Positions 7,761 through 43,003 of a DNA stretch of 64,000 bases are shown here, one piece after another (within the stretch, counting starts at the first letter, position 1; each line of letters opens with the position of its first letter). The notes below the pieces were generated by a model. The model was not told where the DNA came from. It did not search any database and was given only the letters and a program-made list of their open reading frames with translations. The position numbers were made by a program, and so were the translations under genes. This DNA comes from Nitrospirales bacterium (GTDB lineage Bacteria > Nitrospirota > Nitrospiria > Nitrospirales > UBA8639): positions 1 to 64,000 of the forward strand of contig JAJDVY010000003.1 of NCBI GenBank assembly GCA_022825885.1. Reading direction: 5' to 3'.

Positions 7761-7996
7761 ACTTGCCCCTTTCTGTTCGAACATTTTCCCAGCGTGACCG
7801 ATCCTGCTTCTCCCTGCCTCCGGAATGGTCGGTCCGTGCGATTCCTAAAACTTTTACTACCCATGACATGAATCGCTTCGGAACTGAAACAAACTGGCTG
7901 GTCAAACTTAGCCGAATACACGAAAACGGCAACGAAATTTCCATGAATGGTCGAATTCTTCCCTCGATCTTCCTCAATACGGCTATGAAGCAGTCC

Positions 7997-8140
7997 AAGA
8001 ACCTCCGATTTATTGCCCTATCGGGCGCATGGCTGCGTTGTGTCCTCGCTCAACCCTCACCTATCTCTATGATAAGCCTCGGGTTTCGCTCCGGGACGCC
8101 TTGCCCTGCATCCCGCTAGGGCAATAAATCAGAGGTTCCT
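7997..8140. repeat. MITE-like element with 24-base terminal inverted repeats
   Basis: Left arm 7997-8020 and right arm 8117-8140 pair at 22 of 24 positions (core TAGGGCAATAAATC). The 96-base interior is GC-rich, itself partly symmetric (GGCGCATGGCTGCG ... GGGACGCCTTGCCC), and has no coding frame. This fits a non-autonomous mobile element or a large hairpin between the GTPase promoter region and the 3' end of the sigma-54 activator. No target duplication is obvious. Confidence 0.6.
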
Positions 8141-8229
8141 TTATTCTGTGTTTTCTTATTCTGGCTGCAAACAGGGGAACGTGTGAGCCCAAGAGAATGA
8201 ATGAGACAGGAGAAGATATCTATTGCAAG

Positions 8230-9462
8230 TCAGGGTTCTTCGATAAGCTGGTATTTGGCGATCCGATACGCGACTTGACGCGGCGTCATGCCCAAGAGTC
8301 TGGCCGCCTTCGTCTTGACCCATCCTGTTTTCCTGAGGGCTTCTCGAAGACGGTCCCGTTCGATTGCATCCAGGCACGCGGAGAGTGTTGGCTGGGATAC
8401 AGGGCCGTTCGACCCGGTGGAAGGCCGGGAGTGAACGGTTCGCATGTGGTCGAAATACGGCGTGAGCGATTCCGGAACGGACTCCAAATCAACAAGCGAG
8501 GTCTCCGCGAGGACGACCAGCCGTTCAATGCAATTTTGTAATTCACGAATGTTTCCGGGCCAATGGTAGACACTCATCATTTGAACCACGTCCTGCCCCA
8601 ATCGGATGTGCCGGTCATTGGTACGGTTAAACTTGTCGAGGAAATGCACGATGAGCAACGGCACGTCGTCCCGACGGGCACGTAAGGGAGGAAGCGTGAG
8701 CGGCACGACGTTCAGCCGGTAATACAGGTCTTCCCGAAACTCGCCGGCACGAACCATGGCTTCGAGATGACGATGTGTGGCGGCAATCACCCGGACGTTC
8801 ACCGAGAATGTCACCTCACCTCCGACTCGCTCGAAAGTTTTGTCCTGAAGAACGCGGAGAAGCTTTACCTGTGTTGACAGGGGGATATCCCCAACCTCAT
8901 CGAGAAACAACGTTCCGCCGCCGGCCTGTTCCAGTCGTCCTTTTCTGGCCTGATTTGCACCCGTGAAGGCACCACGTTCATGTCCAAACAGGGTTGATTC
9001 AATCAGGGTCTCCGGAATTGCCGCGCAATGCACCACCACAAAGGGTTGTTCGGCACGCTCACTCAAGCAATGAATCCTTTGCGCCACCAATTCCTTGCCC
9101 GTCCCACTTTCGCCGCGAAGCAAGACCGTGGCCGCGGTGTTCGAGATCCGACGGACGGCAACGTCCACCGCTTGCATCGCCGCGCTGGTTCCAATGAGGA
9201 CCGGTGCCTGCTTCTTTTTCCTGGCGGCAGGGACGACACGCAGGTCGTTCCCTACAGGGACCGGCGCATCACCGGCTTGCTTGAGGCGTGGGGATGACTC
9301 GGGAATCCCGTACAAACGGCCTGGAGCCTTACCCGTTTCAGACTCTTGATTCAACAAGTCCAGTGCCTGGCCAATCCGGGTTTCGGGAGCCTCCTGTCGA
9401 TCCAAAATAGCATACAGTCGGGTTATGAGTTTGTCGGCGTCCTTAGAAAGTTCTCGTTTCAT
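8230..9462 (-). CDS. Sigma-54-dependent transcriptional activator (NifA/NtrC class)
   Basis: About 410 residues. The central AAA+ domain has Walker A GESGTGKE, the sigma-54 contact loop GAFTGA, a Walker B block TLFLDEVGDI and an arginine-finger region. The C-terminal Fis-type helix-turn-helix (TKAARLLGMTPRQVAYRI) is very NifA-like. The roughly 110-residue N-terminal part shows no receiver or clear GAF domain, so the input signal is unknown. ATG 9462 was chosen because the open frame further upstream runs through two stem-loops. The gene reads away from the cyanate operon. The array GACA-N4-TGTC at 10015-10065 and the -24/-12 element at 10135 are its probable targets (inference from proximity). 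Confidence 0.88.
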   Translation of the reverse strand: MKRELSKDADKLITRLYAILDRQEAPETRIGQALDLLNQESETGKAPGRLYGIPESSPRLKQAGDAPVPVGNDLRVVPAARKKKQAPVLIGTSAAMQAVDVAVRRISNTAATVLLRGESGTGKELVAQRIHCLSERAEQPFVVVHCAAIPETLIESTLFGHERGAFTGANQARKGRLEQAGGGTLFLDEVGDIPLSTQVKLLRVLQDKTFERVGGEVTFSVNVRVIAATHRHLEAMVRAGEFREDLYYRLNVVPLTLPPLRARRDDVPLLIVHFLDKFNRTNDRHIRLGQDVVQMMSVYHWPGNIRELQNCIERLVVLAETSLVDLESVPESLTPYFDHMRTVHSRPSTGSNGPVSQPTLSACLDAIERDRLREALRKTGWVKTKAARLLGMTPRQVAYRIAKYQLIEEP

Positions 9463-9484
9463 CGTGCCGCTCACGTCTGCATAA

Positions 9485-9540
9485 AACAAAAGGCCCCGGT
9501 AGGTCCACGTCGTTGCTCCGTGGTTTCCCGGCGCCTTTGC
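9485..9540 (-). promoter_or_regulatory. Stem-loop in the leader of the sigma-54 activator gene
   Basis: On the minus strand AAAGGCGCCGG pairs with CCGGGGCCTTTT around an inner hairpin CCACG...CGTGG and purine-rich internal loops (GGGAAACC, ACCTA). A TTTTGTTTTAT run follows, ending about 20 bases before the ATG. It could be an intrinsic terminator, an attenuator or a structured RNA element. I could not match it to a known riboswitch class. Confidence 0.5.
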
Positions 9541-9616
9541 CTTGGTGCATGATCGACTGACCGAATAAGAAAGTTTCCCATACTCGACTGACGTACGGCC
9601 AATGTTCTCTTCGGCC

Positions 9617-9659
9617 AAAAAAAAACGCCCTTTCCCCACCTTCGTTAGGGAAGGACGTT
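9617..9659 (-). terminator. Rho-independent terminator ahead of the activator gene
   Basis: Reading the minus strand, AACGTCCTTCCC, an 11-base loop, GGGAAAGGGCGTT, then nine T. No minus-strand gene lies upstream for several hundred bases, so it would end a short transcript of about 100 bases or act as an attenuator for the activator gene. Confidence 0.75.
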
Positions 9660-9719
9660 CATTGTCCTCGCGCAACGTGTCTCAGTCAGCGTAATGACGA
9701 CTTTGTCATTGTGGGTTGC

Positions 9720-9748
9720 AGTTAAACGTACTTTTCTCTTTTTGTCAA
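9720..9748 (-). promoter_or_regulatory. Possible sigma-70 promoter on the minus strand
   Basis: A perfect TTGACA (minus strand, 9748-9743), a 17-base spacer and a weak TTAACT -10 box. Transcription would begin near 9713 and meet the terminator at 9659-9617 after about 95 bases. Confidence 0.35.
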
Positions 9749-10014
9749 TGGGGCGCATTGGTTGCAGTCAGTCGGGTCGCGCTCGCGGTTCATGCGGGGG
9801 CGGCACCCCGCCCCCACTTTCTTCCTTCTGTCATTCCCGCAGGAGCCTGCCCTTGCCCCCGATCGCGGGCGGCAATGACCGAAGGAGACAAAAGGCTTGT
9901 GCTATGTTTGCTATGATTATGCTATGTTTTTGCTATGTTCCGCAAAGCAGGCGGACCTGGCCTTCCCTCTTCCAATCCACAATCCGAAATTCACAATCCA
10001 CAAGGTACAAACCG
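9749..10014. other. Intergenic DNA with a degraded palindromic repeat
   Basis: GGGGGCGGCACCCCGCCCCC at about 9796 is a small GC-rich hairpin. The stretch 9828-9880 (TGTCATTCCCGC ... GCGGGCGGCAATGACC) is a divergent copy of the dispersed palindromic repeat described elsewhere in this window. No gene is supported. Confidence 0.5.
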
Positions 10015-10065
10015 GACATAATTGTCGGGTTCGGACAAAGATGTCATAACCCTGACAAAGATGCG
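10015..10065 (+). promoter_or_regulatory. Tandem upstream activator sites, GACA-N4-TGTC
   Basis: GACATAATTGTC (10015-10026), GACAAAGATGTC (10034-10045) and the partial copy GACAAAGATGCG (10054-10065) begin 19 and 20 bases apart, about two helical turns. They lie 70 to 120 bases upstream of the -24/-12 element, the usual place for enhancer sites bound by a sigma-54 activator. The adjacent activator gene is the obvious candidate protein. Confidence 0.6.
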
Positions 10066-10134
10066 CGGCGCACGATCGGTTCACTTCGACTCCGAACTTC
10101 AATAATATTCAATACTTGGTTAGGAAAAAGAACG

Positions 10135-10150
10135 TGGCATCCTATTTGCT
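10135..10150 (+). promoter_or_regulatory. Sigma-54 (-24/-12) promoter of the cyanate operon
   Basis: TGGCATCCTATTTGCT matches the consensus TGGCACG-N4-TTGCW at 10 of 12 defined positions, with the essential GG and GC exactly 12 bases apart. It is followed by a leader of about 180 bases before the first gene. The leader contains a small hairpin CTGGC-AATGAC-GCCAG near 10221. Confidence 0.7.
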
Positions 10151-10340
10151 TACCTCTTTTGTAGAGACAGTACGGTGACGGCAGAAGCCCTGTAACCTGA
10201 CAGAGAAGTCAAAGTCGTTCTGGCAATGACGCCAGGCCTGAGAGTTTTACTGAATTCTTGGCTTGGCGTTTTTTTTGCGTTTTCGGGGTCGGTGGAAAAC
10301 AACGTCGGACATTCACATTTTTAAATTTCTGGGAGGAGCC

Positions 10341-11687
10341 ATGGCACATACCATTCACAATACTGAAAACTCTGGATCCCCGATTAAAAATGTCGGGGAT
10401 GACAGCAATCGAGAGGAACCCCTCACCTCTGAAGAGTGCTTGTCCAAGACGATTGAAACGGCCGTGACGAAAGCCGTGTTACAGGCGAGCGGTCCGACGC
10501 GACGGCAACTGCTCGCGGGCGTCGGAAGCGCGGCGTTAGTCGGCCTGATCAGCGAGTTTCTTCCCCTGTCGCAGTTGCAGGCACTGGCCGCGGACCCCGT
10601 GGGCAAACCGGAAAAAACGGATCTCGGGATCGGGTTTATTCCCATTACCTGCGCCACACCGATCATCATGGCCGAACCCATGGGGTTCTACAGCAAGCAC
10701 GGCTTGAACGCCAAAGTCAAACGGGCGGCGGGGTGGGCCATGGTACGGGATTGGGCGATCAACAAAGACGTGGACGCCGCGCATATGCTCTCACCCATGC
10801 CCCTGGCGATCACCCTGGGCGCGGGGTCGCCCCAAGTCCCGTTCTATATGCCGGCCGTGGAAAATATCAACGGGCAAGCCATAACCCTGCACAACAAACA
10901 CAAAGACGTAAAAACGGCCGCCGATATGAAAGGGTTCCGCTTTTGCGTGCCGTTTGACTATTCCATGCACAATTACTTGTTGCGCTATTTCCTGGCCGAG
11001 GGCGGCGTGCATCCGGACAAGGACGTGCAGATCCGCGTGGTGCCGCCCCCGGAAATGGTCGCCAACCTGAAGGCGGGCAACGTGGACGGTTATCTGGCCC
11101 CCGATCCTTTTAACCAACGCGCGGTGTACGAGAACGTCGGCTTTATCTACAAGCTCTCGAAGGACATTTGGGACAAACATCCGTGCTGTGCGTTTGCGAT
11201 CTCGCAGGAATTCGCGACGACGTATCCCAATACGTTCCTCGCGTTGTTCAGGGCGATCGTTGATGCCACCCATTACGCGTCGAACCCGGCCAACCGGAAG
11301 GAAATCGCCAAGGCCATTTCTCCGGCAAATTATTTGAACCAGCCGAGAATCGTCCTGGAACAGGTACTGACCGGGACGTTTGCCGATGGATTGGGCGGGA
11401 TCAAAAAGGTCCCGAGTCGCATTGATTTCGATCCGTACCCCTGGCACTCCATGGCCATCTGGATCCTGACCCAGATGAAACGGTGGGGCCATTTGAAAGG
11501 GGACGTGAATTATCAGAAGGTCGCGGAGCAGGTCTATCTCGCGGCGGAGTGCGACAAAGTGTCCAAAGGTCTGGGCTATTCGACGCACACCAAGACCATG
11601 ATGCCGCACGTCATTATGGGCAAGACGTTTGATCCCTCGATGCCGGACGCCTACGTGAAGAATTTTCCGATTCATAGCATGGCGTAG
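10341..11687 (+). CDS. Cyanate/nitrate-type ABC transporter, substrate-binding protein
   Basis: 448 residues of the NrtA/CmpA/SsuA-like binding protein family. After a 50-residue cytoplasmic-looking extension comes a twin-arginine type signal, TRRQLLAGVGSAALVGL. The binding domain follows (GFIPITCATPIIMAEPMGFY, VPFDYSMHNYLLRY, GYLAPDPFNQRAV). ATG 10341 follows GGGAGGAG; the longer frame from 10263 has no such site. Codons 11-22 are made of a dispersed palindromic repeat (10371-10405), so part of the N-terminus is repeat-derived. The gene leads an operon with permease, ATPase and cyanase. The cyanase suggests cyanate as substrate, though nitrite or nitrate cannot be excluded. Confidence 0.85.
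   Translation: MAHTIHNTENSGSPIKNVGDDSNREEPLTSEECLSKTIETAVTKAVLQASGPTRRQLLAGVGSAALVGLISEFLPLSQLQALAADPVGKPEKTDLGIGFIPITCATPIIMAEPMGFYSKHGLNAKVKRAAGWAMVRDWAINKDVDAAHMLSPMPLAITLGAGSPQVPFYMPAVENINGQAITLHNKHKDVKTAADMKGFRFCVPFDYSMHNYLLRYFLAEGGVHPDKDVQIRVVPPPEMVANLKAGNVDGYLAPDPFNQRAVYENVGFIYKLSKDIWDKHPCCAFAISQEFATTYPNTFLALFRAIVDATHYASNPANRKEIAKAISPANYLNQPRIVLEQVLTGTFADGLGGIKKVPSRIDFDPYPWHSMAIWILTQMKRWGHLKGDVNYQKVAEQVYLAAECDKVSKGLGYSTHTKTMMPHVIMGKTFDPSMPDAYVKNFPIHSMA
10371..10405 (+). repeat. Half-copy of the dispersed palindromic repeat inside a coding region
   Basis: The stretch CTGGATCCCCGATTAAAAAT plus the complementary GTCGGGGATGACAG equals one arm-pair of the intergenic repeats at 14324, 42756 and 56055. 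It is read in frame as SGSPIKNVGDDS near the N-terminus of the binding protein. Confidence 0.8.
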
Positions 11688-11719
11688 GCGGAGAAGGAGG
11701 GGCTGAGCACATCAGAATT

Positions 11720-11826
11720 GTCATTCCGAGCTTGCCCTGAACGAAGTGAAGGGCCTAGCGAGGAATCTTGTAGTTTGGACAACCGAACGCTTGGAAAAGC
11801 AGATTCTTCGCTTCGCTCAGGATGAC
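11720..11826. repeat. Dispersed repeat between binding-protein and permease genes
   Basis: It begins GTCATTCCGAGC and ends TCAGGATGAC. Inner AGCGAGGAATCT and AGATTCTTCGCT pair, so the whole can fold as a long hairpin. It sits within the operon and might affect downstream expression. The rest of the 226-base gap holds only the permease start region. Confidence 0.6.
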
Positions 11827-11913
11827 CATTCGGTATTGTGTGCCTGATGATGGGCTCAGACTAATGCCTAATGAAATTTATCAACGAATGAGTGAACTCG
11901 GACGGGAATAACC

Positions 11914-12801
11914 ATGGGCAGCAAATCGACACAACATCCGTTCTTTGTTTCGGTGTTTTTCCTCGGAATTTTTCTGTTCGTGTGGCACGTCGCCACCATC
12001 AGTCCCCCGTTCGATCCCACGGGCAAGACGGACGAGGAATTGCTGGTCATGGAGTTCAACGGCGACATCGTGCAAACCGACGGCGGCGGATACGCGTGGA
12101 ACCCGGAAAAAGAAAAGGTGAAAGGGGTGCCGGGACCCATGACGGTGCTGGAGAAAGCCTGGGTCGAATTGAACGAAGCCTTTGTGATTAAAGGGACCAA
12201 CGATCACGGAATCGCCTTTTTGGTGGGTTATACGGTCTCACGGTTTTCCGTGGGGTTTCTGGTCGCCTCCGGGGTGGCCATTCTGGTGGGGATTATTTTG
12301 GGATTGAACCAGATGCTGTTTCGTGCGCTGAACCCGTTCATTCAGATCCTGAAACCCATCTCACCCTTAGCCTGGATGCCCTTGCTCCTGTACACGGTCA
12401 AGGACCCGAAATGGACGGCGATCCTGGTGGTGTTCATGGCTGCGATCTGGCCGACCCTGGCCACCACCGCCTTCGGCGTGAACTCCCTCCGGAAGGAGTA
12501 TTTGCAGGTGGCCGCCATCCTGCAGTTGTCGTGGTTCAAGCGGCTCTACAAGGTCATTCTTCCCGGAGCCGCGCCGACCATCGTGAACGGCCTCCGTATT
12601 TCGTTCGGAAGCGCGCTCGTCGCCGTGGTGCCGGCGGAGATGTTGCTGGGGGAACTGGGCGTGGGCTACCTGAGTTGGATTGAATGGAACAACCTGGATA
12701 TTGCCGGGGTCCTCTTCGCCATCCTGGTGGTGGGCACCGTCGGCGTGCTCTTGGACTCGGGATTTAACAAATTGGCCGGGTTGGTCACTTACCGGGAGTA
12801 G
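11914..12801 (+). CDS. Cyanate/nitrate-type ABC transporter, permease
   Basis: 295 residues. After one N-terminal membrane helix there is a soluble insert of about 70 residues (PPFDPTGKTDEELL to the start of the core). About five further helices carry the binding-protein-dependent permease motif near LRISFGSALVAVVPAEMLLGELG, where EAA-type contacts to the ATPase are made. It belongs to the NrtB/CmpB/SsuC group, and the insert is typical of NrtB-like proteins. The start at 11914 has a weak GGGA site. The ATPase ATG begins four bases after the stop. Confidence 0.88.
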   Translation: MGSKSTQHPFFVSVFFLGIFLFVWHVATISPPFDPTGKTDEELLVMEFNGDIVQTDGGGYAWNPEKEKVKGVPGPMTVLEKAWVELNEAFVIKGTNDHGIAFLVGYTVSRFSVGFLVASGVAILVGIILGLNQMLFRALNPFIQILKPISPLAWMPLLLYTVKDPKWTAILVVFMAAIWPTLATTAFGVNSLRKEYLQVAAILQLSWFKRLYKVILPGAAPTIVNGLRISFGSALVAVVPAEMLLGELGVGYLSWIEWNNLDIAGVLFAILVVGTVGVLLDSGFNKLAGLVTYRE

Positions 12802-12805
12802 CGTC

Positions 12806-13690
12806 ATGTCCTTTCTCTCTATCGATCACGTGAGCAAGTATTTCCCGAGTCATTCGGGGAACGGCACGGTCTGCATCTTCGAAAAGGTCACGGTCAAGAT
12901 CAACAAAGGGGAGTTCGTCACCGTAATCGGCCATTCCGGGTGCGGCAAAAGTACGCTGCTCAATATCATCGCCGGATTGGAAACACCGACCGAAGGCGGC
13001 GCCATCCTGAACGGCCAGGAAGTCTCGGGTCCGGGATTGGACCGGATGGTGGTCTTTCAAAATTTCGCATTGATGCCGTGGATGACGGTCTTCCAGAACG
13101 TCGCCATCGCCGTCCGCTCGGCCTATCCCACCTGGAGTTCGCAGGAGATCAAGGCTCACGTGCAGAAATACATCACACTCGTCGGCCTGCAAGGAGCCGA
13201 AACCAAAAAACCCACGGCCTTGTCCGGGGGGATGAAACAGCGGGTCGGACTGGCGCGCGCGTTTTCCATTGAACCGAAAGTTCTCCTGCTGGATGAACCG
13301 TTCGCGCAAATTGACGCGCTGACCAGGGGCGTGATCCAGGAGGAACTGGTGCAGATGTGGAATGCCACCCGCAACACGGTCTTCATGGTCACGCATGACG
13401 TGGACGAGGCCATCCTGCTCTCCGACCGCATCATGCTCATGACCAACGGCCCGTCGGCGCGGATTGCGGAGATTGTGGACGTGACCATTCCCCGGCCTCG
13501 ATCACGGGAAACGATTATTGACGACGAACACTATTACAAGATTCGAAACCACATCATTCATTTTCTCGTCCGGCATGCCTCGCATGGACAAACGGATGAA
13601 GGCGGGGATCACGCGGAACCGTCCGACCCCGTCGAAATCAACTTCAGCCGGCAGTCGACGAACAAGGATGAAACCGTCATGTCGCACTAG
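12806..13690 (+). CDS. Cyanate/nitrate-type ABC transporter, ATP-binding protein
   Basis: 294 residues. Walker A GHSGCGKST, Q-loop VVFQNFALMPW, signature LSGGMKQR, Walker B VLLLDEPF and switch histidine VTHDVDEA are all present, so it should hydrolyse ATP. It resembles NrtD/CmpD. A C-terminal extension of about 40 residues after FLVRHASHG is hydrophilic and unlike the NrtC regulatory domain. ATG 12806 is just past the permease stop. The longer frame from 12680 overlaps the permease and is rejected. Cyanase follows 15 bases later. Confidence 0.9.
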   Translation: MSFLSIDHVSKYFPSHSGNGTVCIFEKVTVKINKGEFVTVIGHSGCGKSTLLNIIAGLETPTEGGAILNGQEVSGPGLDRMVVFQNFALMPWMTVFQNVAIAVRSAYPTWSSQEIKAHVQKYITLVGLQGAETKKPTALSGGMKQRVGLARAFSIEPKVLLLDEPFAQIDALTRGVIQEELVQMWNATRNTVFMVTHDVDEAILLSDRIMLMTNGPSARIAEIVDVTIPRPRSRETIIDDEHYYKIRNHIIHFLVRHASHGQTDEGGDHAEPSDPVEINFSRQSTNKDETVMSH

Positions 13691-13705
13691 AAAGGAGCCA
13701 TCGTC

Positions 13706-14146
13706 ATGAAAGAAACTTGTCCTAAAACGACCATAAAGGCCAAACGTCTGAAGAAGAAAATAACGATTGCCAAGGTCGCGAAAGCCGTGAACAAAAGTCC
13801 GACCTTCGTGGCCGCTGCCTTGAACGGGAACCACCGGTTGACGCCGAAGGAAGCAGCAACCGTCGGAAAACTGTTGGACCTGGATCAGGAATCCACCGCC
13901 AGCTTAAGCCGGTTTCCGGTACGTGGAGACTTTCCCAACATGAGCGATCCGTTCAAGTACCGGCTGATCGAGGTGATCGGCGTCTATGGCGATGCCTTGC
14001 GGGACATGGCCAATGAAATGTTCGGGGACGGCATCATGAGCGCCATTGATTTTTCACTTGACATGGAAAAGGTCAAGGGAAGTCAGGGAGAAGATCGTTG
14101 CCAGATCACCCTGAACGGGAAGTGGCTTGAGTATAAAACCTTCTAG
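13706..14146 (+). CDS. cynS: Cyanase (cyanate hydratase)
   Basis: Converts cyanate and bicarbonate to ammonia and CO2 as a cytoplasmic decamer. Of 146 residues, the N-terminal helix bundle (AKVAKAVNKSPTFVAAALNG) is followed by the catalytic domain, where Arg86, Glu89 and Ser112 match Arg96, Glu99 and Ser122 of the E. coli enzyme with the same spacing (YRLIEV ... FGDGIMSAIDF). GAAAGGAGCC precedes ATG 13706. It is last in the operon and is followed by a strong terminator. With the transporter it would supply ammonium from external cyanate, as known for Nitrospira, some of which feed ammonia oxidisers this way. Confidence 0.95.
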   Translation: MKETCPKTTIKAKRLKKKITIAKVAKAVNKSPTFVAAALNGNHRLTPKEAATVGKLLDLDQESTASLSRFPVRGDFPNMSDPFKYRLIEVIGVYGDALRDMANEMFGDGIMSAIDFSLDMEKVKGSQGEDRCQITLNGKWLEYKTF

Positions 14147-14323: not shown

Positions 14324-14448
14324 CTGTCATCCCCGACCCCGATCGGGGATCCAGTGTCGTTATCCTGCAAACTAAGGAAAAAACAAAGACGCTGGATTCC
14401 CGATTAAAAATGTCGGGAATGACAGCAGGAAAAATGTCGGGAATGACG
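14324..14448. repeat. Dispersed palindromic repeat (paired arms)
   Basis: The left hairpin CTGTCATCCCCGA...TCGGGGATCCAGTGTC and right hairpin GACGCTGGATTCCCGATTAA plus its complementary end face each other across about 35 bases. A partial extra arm (ATGTCGGGAATGAC) follows. It fills most of the gap between cynS and the next gene. Confidence 0.8.
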
Positions 14449-21102: not shown

Positions 21103-24100
21103 CTAAATAAGCTTGCCGGAATTATCCCAATCAGCAGGAGGTTCTTTCCATTTACCACGAGGAAGAAGACCAGGACTTGGGATGCGAACTGTATTATCAG
21201 CGAGAGATTGCTTAGGACGCTCAACAAGCTTTCGTGGATCAACTTCAGCAAATGCGATCGCAGCTTGGGGTTGGCCATGCAGATGGAAAATCTGGCGCTC
21301 GTTGGCATTATGATATGGCAGGAAAAAACTGCTACCGCCAAACTGTCCGTTGTTTACAAGAATCACGCCTTGAAACATATGGTAGTGGAGAGCCTCAGTC
21401 ATTCGATCAAAAGTCCCCACATCCTTGTTTAAAGCACACACAATGTAGAGATCGCTTCGTGATCTTAGGTCTGCCGCGAGTGCGATATCGGTAGCGTCGT
21501 AGCAAATTGATGCCGTCAACCGTAATGGGCGATTTGCGTCTGTGTCGGTGTGCCATTGGTAATCAATCAACCATTGGACTGGACGAAATTCGACTGGTGC
21601 AGGAGAAAAACTCTTTTCATGTGGCGTCAGATGACGCTTTCCTTGCTCGATCCTTTTGATCTGAAGTCCGTGGGCCGGAGTCCACTCTGGAATCAACCAA
21701 AGAGCGCTGTTAATCAATGGCGAGCCTGCCGCGTTATCTTTGGGATGATAGACTTGTCCAATCAATACGATGCATCTGTGCTGCCTGACAAACGGTAGAA
21801 TCAGCGAATTGATGTCATCTGGATGGACCGCCAACTCTGGAAATATTAAAAGATCAAGGCTTCCATGATCAGGGCTTGGAGAGTCGATGTGTGTCGTCCG
21901 AATCTGCAACATTTGTGTGATCCCTCGTATAACTGATGCGAGATGAGTCATTTGTCGTTTTCGATTCGAACGTCCGTTAAGCTGAAGATTCGAACGATTA
22001 TTATCGTAGTCTTCGGAATTTGGGATCACTGATTGCACAATTCCCACTCGTAGCAGTCGTGAGTCCACTCCCTCTGGAGGCTTGGATGACCATGGGGCGG
22101 ATTGCTCAAGGAAAGTAGAAGATGTGAACTGGCCGCGCTTTTTTCTGATCACGTGCAGCCGATCCTGAATGCTGGTAAGAAGTTGAGAGATTGGCTTGAT
22201 TTCGGTCATGACACCAGACCCCGGCCATCTCAGTAGCTCAAAAAGCAAATTCTCCGTAAACGACGAAATCGGCATCCAGGCCGGACCAAAACCATCCCGT
22301 CCCTGATATCCTGAATACCTCTGTTGCTCCCAATGCGCAGTCGGTTTGGTATAACACGGTTTTCGATATGGCATTTTCGACAGTTGTCTACTTAAGAAGT
22401 CAGTCTTGCCGCAAAGCGCATAACGGAGTAACAGCCCCACATTGAATCGTTGACGATCTTCATCGCCTTCGCACCACTCGGGTGCTTCAAAGAGGTCCGT
22501 GGCAAAATCTCCAGCTGCCTCAATACCAAACGACTGGGATGAAACCTTACCGAATTCATAACCAGATGGAGTTGGATTTTCCTTGCTACAGCGAATCCTC
22601 GAAGGGGAAATCGCCTCTCTAAATTTTGTCGGTTCTTGGCTGAGTAAGAACTCTGCCAATTGAAGAAGGTTTTCCTCTTCATAGAAGGGGTTGACCTCTC
22701 CGGCTGCAATGTGCGCCAAAGTGCGCTTAAAGGAGATCGAAGTTGGTGCCTCAATACCGATCCGCACTGCAATTTGTTTCGCTCTGTCGCCAGATTTTAT
22801 GCCGAACACAGCCCAGAGTTCCTTTGCCAGCGAGGGTGAAATTGAATTCACTCGGGTCAAAAACGCAGGTGCGATTCGGTTTATTGCAGAAAGATATGTG
22901 AACCCAGAGATCCCTAAAGCAGTGTGTGCTTCGACTAACATGATTGATCGTTCATCAAGTTTTTTGAGTGTGTCTCCACGAAGAAACTTTAAGAGGACCC
23001 AGTAGGGGCGCATCAGCGGCCCCCCGCGTGCATTCGTTTCCAATACGGCATCCGGAACTTTATTTCTTGCAGCCAGATACAGAAATACCTGTTGCATCAA
23101 ATACCAGGGGAACCGCGACGATGAAGCCTTTCCCGCTAAGTATGCATCAAATACCTCTCGGGCTTCTTGAATAAGCCTGTCGTGGTAATCGTTAATTGAA
23201 ACATCGGATGGCAAACACTCCGATTCATCCAAAGGGACAATCCCTGTTTCGGTTGCTCCAGCACGGAAAAGCTCGGCGAGACAGTAAAGTCTAACTTCTC
23301 GTTTTACCTTTCTGTATTTTGGGGATTCCCAGCCTAGGCGCAGTAGTTTGAGAACTTCCTCCAAGAAATTTTGATCCGGATAAATATCGAGGGCAATGCG
23401 GAGCAACCGAATGTTGCCAGGGTTTTTGATCCATTCCTCGATCAGCCCGGCGCAAAACAATTTCCCCCGTTCATCAAGCTGCGATTTTGAGAGAACGAGC
23501 CTTACATGTGGGATTGGGGCTTCAATACCGTCATCGTCTTCTGAGGGTGTTGGTCTGGATTCAATTTCATCGGCAAGTAGCGGTCGAAGAGAACGGAATG
23601 TCCGCCTGAACTTTCCGGCACTAAAACGGGCGGCGGTGTCGTCAGCCATATCGGGAACTCCTACAAGAAGGCTATCTGTTTCCGCGTCAACTGAAGTGGA
23701 ATAGTGCTGTTGCGTGTGGAAGAATCCTTCGATTGCTTTGATAAGCTCAGTGCCATGAAGCATATCAAACGTGCCAGAGACTTCCGTTTGAATTCTTGCG
23801 GCTTCCAGTGATTGCCTTATAAGGAATCGTTTGTCTCTTCCTTCAATGATGACCTTAGTCTTCTCATCCAAGACTCTCATTCCATCCGCTGTTGAATCGA
23901 GCGTGTTCTGTAACATTTTTCTCACTTGCGTCCGCACGTCAATGTGACGACATCCCCGCGAGACCGTCAAAACCATCCGAAAATCGTCTACATAGTAACA
24001 GACATCGCGAAGAACCAGATTCAGATGCCGATCAATAACCGTGCCAATCTGTTCTCTCAGAGCTGTCTCGAAATCCAGGAGAGCAATATTCGCGAAAAAG

Positions 24101-42755: not shown

Positions 42756-43003
42756 CTGTCATCCCCGACCCCGATCGGGGATCCAGGGTCGTTGCTTCAC
42801 GGACGAAGAAAAACCAAAGACACTGGATCCTCGATTAAAAATGTCGAGGATGACAGACAAAGGCAAAAAGCCAAGCCGTGGCTTCGTTTCAGATCAAGCC
42901 TGGGATTATGTCAACGAATTAGTGAATATTTACAATCCCCGATCCTCGATTAAGAATGTCAAGGACAGGCTCTGATCGGGGATCCAGTGCCTTTGTAACC
43001 GTG
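42756..43003. repeat. Dispersed palindromic repeats, one full and one partial copy
   Basis: The full copy lies at 42756-42856 (CTGTCATCCCCGA...TCGGGGATCCAGGGTC; GACACTGGATCCTCGATTAA ... GAGGATGACAG). A partial, rearranged copy at about 42938-43000 contains CGATTAAGAATGTCAAGGAC and CGGGGATCCAGTGCC. They mark the left border of the accessory island. Confidence 0.75.

Follow-up and report, generated by a model that had tools for sequence, protein, structure and literature searches.

The window analysed here is a stretch of 64,000 nucleotides on contig C48 of a 2.38-Mb genome from the order Nitrospirales. It carries the plus-strand operon nrtA-nrtB-nrtC-cynS (10341-14146), which codes for a transporter and for cyanase. 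On the opposite strand lies the gene for a sigma-54 activator, referred to as EBP below.

8230-9462, minus strand: NifA-like sigma-54 activator (EBP), 410 residues, AAA+ domain with GAFTGA, Fis-type HTH
10341-11687, plus strand: nrtA/cynA-like substrate-binding protein (NMT1_2)
11914-12801, plus strand: nrtB/cynB-like permease
12806-13690, plus strand: nrtC/cynD-like ATPase (TIGR01184, above cut-off)
13706-14146, plus strand: cynS, cyanase (TIGR00673, above cut-off, 130.4 vs. 113.3 bits)

The same gene cluster is known from Nitrospirales as cynABDS or nrtABD-cynS (PMC12342949). Unlike the present analysis, that 2025 survey nowhere mentions sigma factors and antitermination. It reports that lineage IVb is mostly sponge-associated and that an ABC transporter adjoins cynS in almost all cyanase-bearing IVb genomes. 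The genus of the window genome probably belongs to lineage IVb and would hence be termed sponge-associated; the bacterium is taken to be a nitrite oxidiser. Among the equivalog models, no specific one was matched by the nrtA binding protein. The transporter substrate is probably cyanate, since the cyanase gene adjoins the transporter genes.

A short palindromic repeat, GGATCCCCGATTAAAAATGTCGGGGATGACAG (10371-10412), is part of the nrtA coding region, close to the N-terminus. Near-identical copies are found at 14392-14427 and 42823-42856 of the window.

Operator array and -24/-12 promoter

The intergenic region contains the following elements upstream of the expected start of transcription.

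10015-10026, unstranded: operator dyad 1, GACATAATTGTC (from sequence and congener conservation)
10034-10045, unstranded: operator dyad 2, GACAAAGATGTC, 19 bp from dyad 1 (from sequence and congener conservation)
10054-10065, unstranded: degenerate operator dyad 3, GACAAAGATGCG, 20 bp from dyad 2
10099-10123, unstranded: A/T-rich block, CTTCAATAATATTCAATACTTGG..., between array and promoter (conservation 0.88 in the 11-genome alignment)
10135-10150, plus strand: -24/-12 (sigma-54) promoter, TGGCATCCTATTTGCT (11/11 congeners)

The initial annotation had reported a -24/-12 box with correct GG-GC spacing, preceded by two and a half copies of GACA-N4-TGTC, 19 and 20 bases apart. The three dyads were confirmed at 10015-10065. 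A comparison of the upstream regions of the same operon in relatives revealed array and box in each of the 11 genomes of the genus which have the operon. TGGCATCCTATTTGCT is the sole exact match to TGGCAYNNNNNTTGCW within the window. Its GG (10136-10137) and GC (10148-10149) are 12 bases apart within TGGCAY-N5-TTGCW, and from these positions transcription is expected to start near 10160. The rpoN gene is present as a single copy in the genome, on contig C23.

Exact copies of GACA-N4-TGTC number five in the window as compared to 0.89 expected, a count reached by none of 100 shuffles. When the region was shuffled 20,000 times, two exact dyads within 25 bp never arose, and the dyad pair occurs at one place only in the whole genome. 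The GACA half of dyad 3 is retained in 10 of the 11 congeners; the eleventh (G010) has an extra dyad upstream instead.

When the 11 upstream regions are aligned, the mean majority-base share is 0.92 for the array and 0.93 for the -24/-12 box, vs. 0.38 in the DNA preceding the array and 0.68 in that from array to promoter. The array, the A/T-rich block, the -24/-12 box and, farther downstream, the hairpins P1 and P2 and the terminator (see below) are conserved islands amid drifting DNA. The A/T-rich block may be a bend site. It could be argued that box and dyads are relics and that transcription of the operon starts at a sigma-70 promoter, as in Nitrospira proper; in Nitrospiraceae, the leaders of this operon indeed have an apparent sigma-70 promoter (TTGACG...TATACA-like) and tandem ANTAR units. 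However, a search of the plus strand in 9440-10345 revealed no plausible sigma-70 site, and array and box rank with the best-conserved blocks here. We consider it extremely improbable that they are relics and adhere to a sigma-54 promoter for this operon.

With respect to helical phasing, the distances from array to promoter show modest clustering (R 0.63-0.68) among rows which are related by descent, and because of this relatedness we do not claim a phasing of array to promoter. A MITE-like element of ~143 bp with ~27-bp inverted ends is found at 7996-8142 of the window and also at G009:C69:26275-26412. The latter copy is located between operator array and -24/-12 box, where the distance is 267 bp vs. 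about 120 bp. The element has 27 matches in the window genome, 10-70 in the six congeners searched, and none in G010 or G024.

EBP has the Walker A motif GESGTGKE and a GAFTGA motif. Its start at 9462 was chosen from conservation; a longer reading frame, extending to 9675, was rejected as it would cross the leader terminators described below. According to Pfam, the N-terminal stretch of about 85 residues has no known domain and no GAF domain, and EBP is regarded as devoid of a sensor domain on the basis of this Pfam result and of its short, variable N-terminus. The match to TIGR01817, the NifA equivalog, is below the cut-off (423.6 vs. 528.9 bits, residues 149-476 only). In the phylogenetic tree, the EBPs form one clade (99/98) next to NifA and apart from the seven other EBPs of the genome. 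The HTH region agrees to 76.5% with that of NifA, and KAARLLGMTPRQVAYRI is identical in Pantoea NifA.

This NifA-like DNA-binding domain fits an operator in the NifA register, that is, an ordinary NifA-type upstream activator sequence (TGT-N9/10-ACA) in which neighbouring half-sites are paired. In each of the 11 congeners, TGT-N9-ACA is present once and TGT-N10-ACA at least once, and in G011 the degraded half-site is the leftmost one, for which this register has no use. The NifA register was favoured initially and was demoted on the evidence of G016 and G022, where the dyads are 22 bp apart; this breaks TGT-N10-ACA while GACA-N4-TGTC persists. Across genera, the inner gap is always 4, whereas the dyad-to-dyad distance is 19, 20 or 22 and the gap between dyads is 7, 8 or 10. 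The fact that N4 is constant and the inter-dyad gap varies favours GACA-N4-TGTC, the unit originally proposed, over TGT-N10-ACA, and we consider an ordinary NifA-type operator rather doubtful.

The proposal that the operator is unlike that of NifA thus probably holds for the dyad geometry only, since EBP has the DNA-binding helix of NifA and the half-site letters TGT/ACA are the same. As at NifA upstream activator sequences (TGT-N10-ACA; PMC2820453), sigma-54 activation would occur from sites ~100 bp or more upstream, by a protein with a near-identical recognition helix. The window differs from the NifA system in having GACA-N4-TGTC dyads in arrays at 19-22 bp, in the lack of an N-terminal GAF domain in EBP, and in the targets, which would be cyanate and nitrite assimilation and not nif. 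Judged by sequence, the DNA-binding helix is of the NifA type and the site geometry probably is not. A NifA recognition helix in combination with a different site geometry is a natural test of how spacing is chosen by Fis-type domains.

Leaders of nrtA and of the EBP message

The control region had been called complete with the -24/-12 box. It proved to extend past 10150 as far as the terminator of the nrtA leader (about 10276), and the minus strand carries another regulatory region, with promoter and leader of EBP, at 9483-9748. The earlier claim included neither the ANTAR leader downstream of the promoter nor its counterpart on the EBP message.

10198-10211, plus strand: ANTAR hexaloop P1 of nrtA, TGAC-AGAGAA-GTCA (A1, G4)
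10220-10235, plus strand: ANTAR hexaloop P2 of nrtA, CTGGC-AATGAC-GCCAG (A1, G4), 3' arm common to the terminator
10228-10276, plus strand: intrinsic terminator of the nrtA leader, 19-pair stem (10228-10270) and U tract
9720-9748, minus strand: EBP promoter, sigma-70 like, TTGACA (9748-9743), 17-bp spacer, TTAACT (9725-9720), read from the sequence and the upstream regions of the genus
9693-9710, minus strand: hexaloop P1 of the EBP leader, AATGAC-AAAGTC-GTCATT, with compensatory changes across 14 genomes
9652-9668, minus strand: P2 of the EBP leader, AGGAC-AATGAAC-GTCCT, seven-base loop (A1, G4)
9617-9664, minus strand: terminator 1 of the EBP leader, U9, overlapping the 3' arm of P2
9483-9541, minus strand: second attenuator of the EBP leader, hairpin GGC-AAAGGC-GCC (9541-9530) overlapping a terminator which ends with TTTTGTTTT

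Targets of ANTAR proteins are defined by paired hexaloops with A1 and G4, the second hairpin of which overlaps a terminator (PMC3369931, PMC8934654). Sequence comparison identifies the nrtA leader as a putative dual-hexaloop antiterminator target of this kind. The 5' arm of its terminator takes in the 3' arm of P2, which makes P2 and terminator mutually exclusive. Upon folding, the terminator is assigned -27.0 kcal/mol vs. -12.0 for P1 and P2 together; it is bulged and is missed by a mechanical terminator scan. Both hexaloops are found in all 11 nrtA leaders of the genus, and most leaders of the order have them too, with differing stems. Within the genus, base 4 is always G (11/11), while base 1 is A in 9/11 for P1 (G in 2/11) and in 10/11 for P2. 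The P1 stem has only four pairs. Covariation was seen in leaders pooled across the order (36 double-changed cells vs. 13.2 in shuffles, 0/500), a figure which refers to the pool and not to P1/P2 of nrtA alone, the stems of which vary little within the genus. The most diverged congener, G010, has G1 in both nrtA hexaloops.

For P1 of the EBP leader, 15 double-changed cells were counted vs. 3.8 expected (0/500 shuffles), and RNAalifold recovers, unaided, this hairpin and the terminator. The six-base loop of ANTAR targets is present in P1 only, as the P2 loop has seven bases. The second attenuator, just before the EBP start, occurs in most congeners but is lacking in G004 and G006. A riboswitch had been suspected from the appearance of the EBP leader; this was dropped on account of the hexaloops and terminators. 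The seven-base P2 loop (AATGAAC or close) is kept in the window and 13 further genomes; ANTAR targets normally have six bases.

The window genome encodes one ANTAR protein, on contig C23, with the domain structure GAF-GAF-ANTAR; it has no NIT nitrate-sensor domain. Its gene adjoins nadE and a glnD-like gene, the latter assigned by reading of the sequence. A single ANTAR protein is also found in 43 of the 51 relatives examined. The seven-base loop 2 of the EBP leader and the G at position 1 of some loops would be compatible with another type of attenuator, such as a metabolite riboswitch or a protein-binding leader. Yet no Rfam family matched above threshold and the weak matches are due to chance; moreover, paired hexaloops with G4 and mostly A1, the second overlapping a terminator, correspond to the published ANTAR definition, one ANTAR protein is encoded, and the leaders are found at nitrogen genes. 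An attenuator of another type thus seems unlikely, and we infer that the ANTAR protein acts on both leaders.

Occurrence of EBP and array in related genomes

Within the genus (n=14 genomes), EBP is encoded in all 11 operon-bearing congeners and in none of the three without operon. The dyad pair follows the same pattern, being found once in each of the 11 and not in the other three; an array match in G014, inside a reading frame resembling peptidyl-prolyl isomerase, was discarded as a chance match. EBP and array thus occur together in 11/14 congeners and are absent together from 3/14. They also occur together in five further genera of the family (G016, G017, G019, G022, G024), with 2-3 dyads and a -24/-12 box coming after EBP. 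This supports the initial view that the adjacent EBP is the likely cognate activator. EBP is a divergent neighbour of the operon in six congeners and is encoded elsewhere in five, which indicates that the link between EBP and array is more than adjacency.

The genes after the array code for a nirC-type formate/nitrite transporter and assimilatory nitrite reductase (nirA) in G016, G017, G019, and G024. For G022, the nirA match is partial and located elsewhere in the genome. In congener G006, the array occurs at both nirC-nirA and nrtABC-cynS. Because the same EBP adjoins the same dyads at nirC-nirA in four genera, EBP appears to be a regulator of nitrogen assimilation and not of cyanate only. 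The initial idea of a regulator dedicated to cyanate could not be maintained. On contig C95 of G006, a decayed EBP remnant with readable C-terminal HTH precedes the array and nirC-nirA; the intact EBP is encoded elsewhere. EBP adjoins nirC-nirA in congener G004, and no array was found in the stretch read there.

The promoter might be driven by another, NtrC-like sigma-54 activator, with the neighbouring EBP being incidental. Seven further EBPs are encoded in the genome, and sigma-54 nitrogen operons are usually driven by NtrC elsewhere. We nevertheless consider this very unlikely, given that EBP and array are gained and lost together (11/11 vs. 0/3) even where they are unlinked, that other genera have the same EBP along with this array at nirC-nirA, and that the recognition helices of the seven paralogues differ from that of EBP. 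We infer that it is EBP which binds the array. The six EBPs which are adjacent to cyn genes form a 100/100 clade within the single EBP clade, which suggests that EBP moved once to the cyanate operon, together with its own promoter and leader.

EBP is encoded inside the nrt-cyn operon in Nitrospiraceae, and a scan of this EBP region revealed no dyads and no convincing -24/-12 box. Nitrospira proper has tandem ANTAR units at the nrt-cyn operon, and in several of its genomes the operon begins with EBP, which is preceded by an ANTAR leader of its own. Since tandem units and EBP leaders are present there, the predicted attenuation appears to occur across the order. Putative sigma-54 control of the cyanate operon is seen only in the genus of the window.

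Proposed control circuit and known precedents

We consider it quite likely that the operon for cyanate uptake and cyanase is under two-layer control by a sigma-54 EBP array and an ANTAR leader, forming a feed-forward AND gate. In the first layer, the adjacent EBP would bind the GACA-N4-TGTC array about 100-145 bp upstream of the start, reach sigma-54 polymerase at the -24/-12 box by looping, and open the promoter. In the second layer, the nascent nrtA leader would halt at the strong intrinsic terminator unless the ANTAR protein holds P1/P2. The EBP message, transcribed from a putative sigma-70-like promoter, would carry a hexaloop attenuator too, from which the ANTAR protein would release EBP. 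As EBP has no sensor domain, it would be regulated by its amount. Because both leaders carry hexaloop attenuators, the single ANTAR protein could set both the amount of the activator and the read-through of the activator's target. This would constitute a coherent feed-forward AND gate, by which the cyanate genes are made only while the signal persists, and which would answer nitrogen shortage or a nitrogen oxyanion. Nitrogen status and nitrite/nitrate are the obvious candidates for the ANTAR signal. Somewhat more cautiously, we favour the generalisation that a sensorless NifA-like activator, set by ANTAR antitermination, is a portable feed-forward nitrogen module which is family-wide in nitrite oxidisers, with its array before nirC-nirA in some genera and before cyanate genes in another.

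The closest precedent is the nasFEDCBA operon of Klebsiella, where Ntr/sigma-54 initiation is combined with antitermination by the ANTAR protein NasR (PMC5424462, PMC3369931). Both systems have a sigma-54 nitrogen promoter followed by an ANTAR-hexaloop leader with terminator, and thus double control. They differ in the activator, which is the global response regulator NtrC in Klebsiella and a small EBP without sensor domain in the window. NasR senses nitrate by a NIT domain, while the sensor part is GAF-GAF in the window genome. Further differences are the predicted ANTAR attenuation of the activator's own message and the target, nrtABC-cynS. The window also resembles the ANTAR regulons of EutV, NasR, and NasT (PMC3369931, PMC8934654) in the A1/G4 loops of P1/P2, the overlap of P2 with the terminator, and the association with nitrogen genes. 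Unlike these regulons, it has an ANTAR leader on the gene for a sigma-54 activator whose target is ANTAR-attenuated too, and the second loop of this EBP leader has seven bases.

For Klebsiella nas, joint control by sigma-54 and an ANTAR protein is already known (PMC5424462). New are the dedicated NifA-like activator, its operator, and the predicted ANTAR control of the activator's own message, as well as the occurrence of the module in nitrite oxidisers and its re-use at both nitrite and cyanate genes. A literature search, with most subscription journals outside its reach, did not reveal a paper describing the circuit of the window. If true, the wiring from ANTAR protein to activator to ANTAR-gated operon would extend the double control of nas, which has two parallel inputs, to a feed-forward loop. 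It is little understood how nitrite-oxidising Nitrospirales choose among cyanate, urea, and nitrite as nitrogen source, and the circuit offered here is a concrete proposal in which the sites, an activator, an antiterminator, and candidate target genes are named.

At least two further ANTAR-type leaders are present in the window genome, one before nadE and one before genes for a porin-like protein and a urea transporter. In the whole genome, RNA model R1 (short linker) gave a confident match to the nrtA leader only; the further leaders were detected by pattern and terminator, and their number is a lower bound. The leader at G000:C11 (about 23680-23785) consists of GGGAAAC-GAAGAT-GTTTCCC, AAGGAC-ATTGAC-GTCCTT, and a terminator, and precedes the porin-like gene, urtA, and other urea-transporter genes. 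The leader at G000:C23:26901-26950 has a single clear hexaloop, GGGAC-AAAGGC-GTCCT, with a terminator, and is located before nadE, directly downstream of the ANTAR gene.
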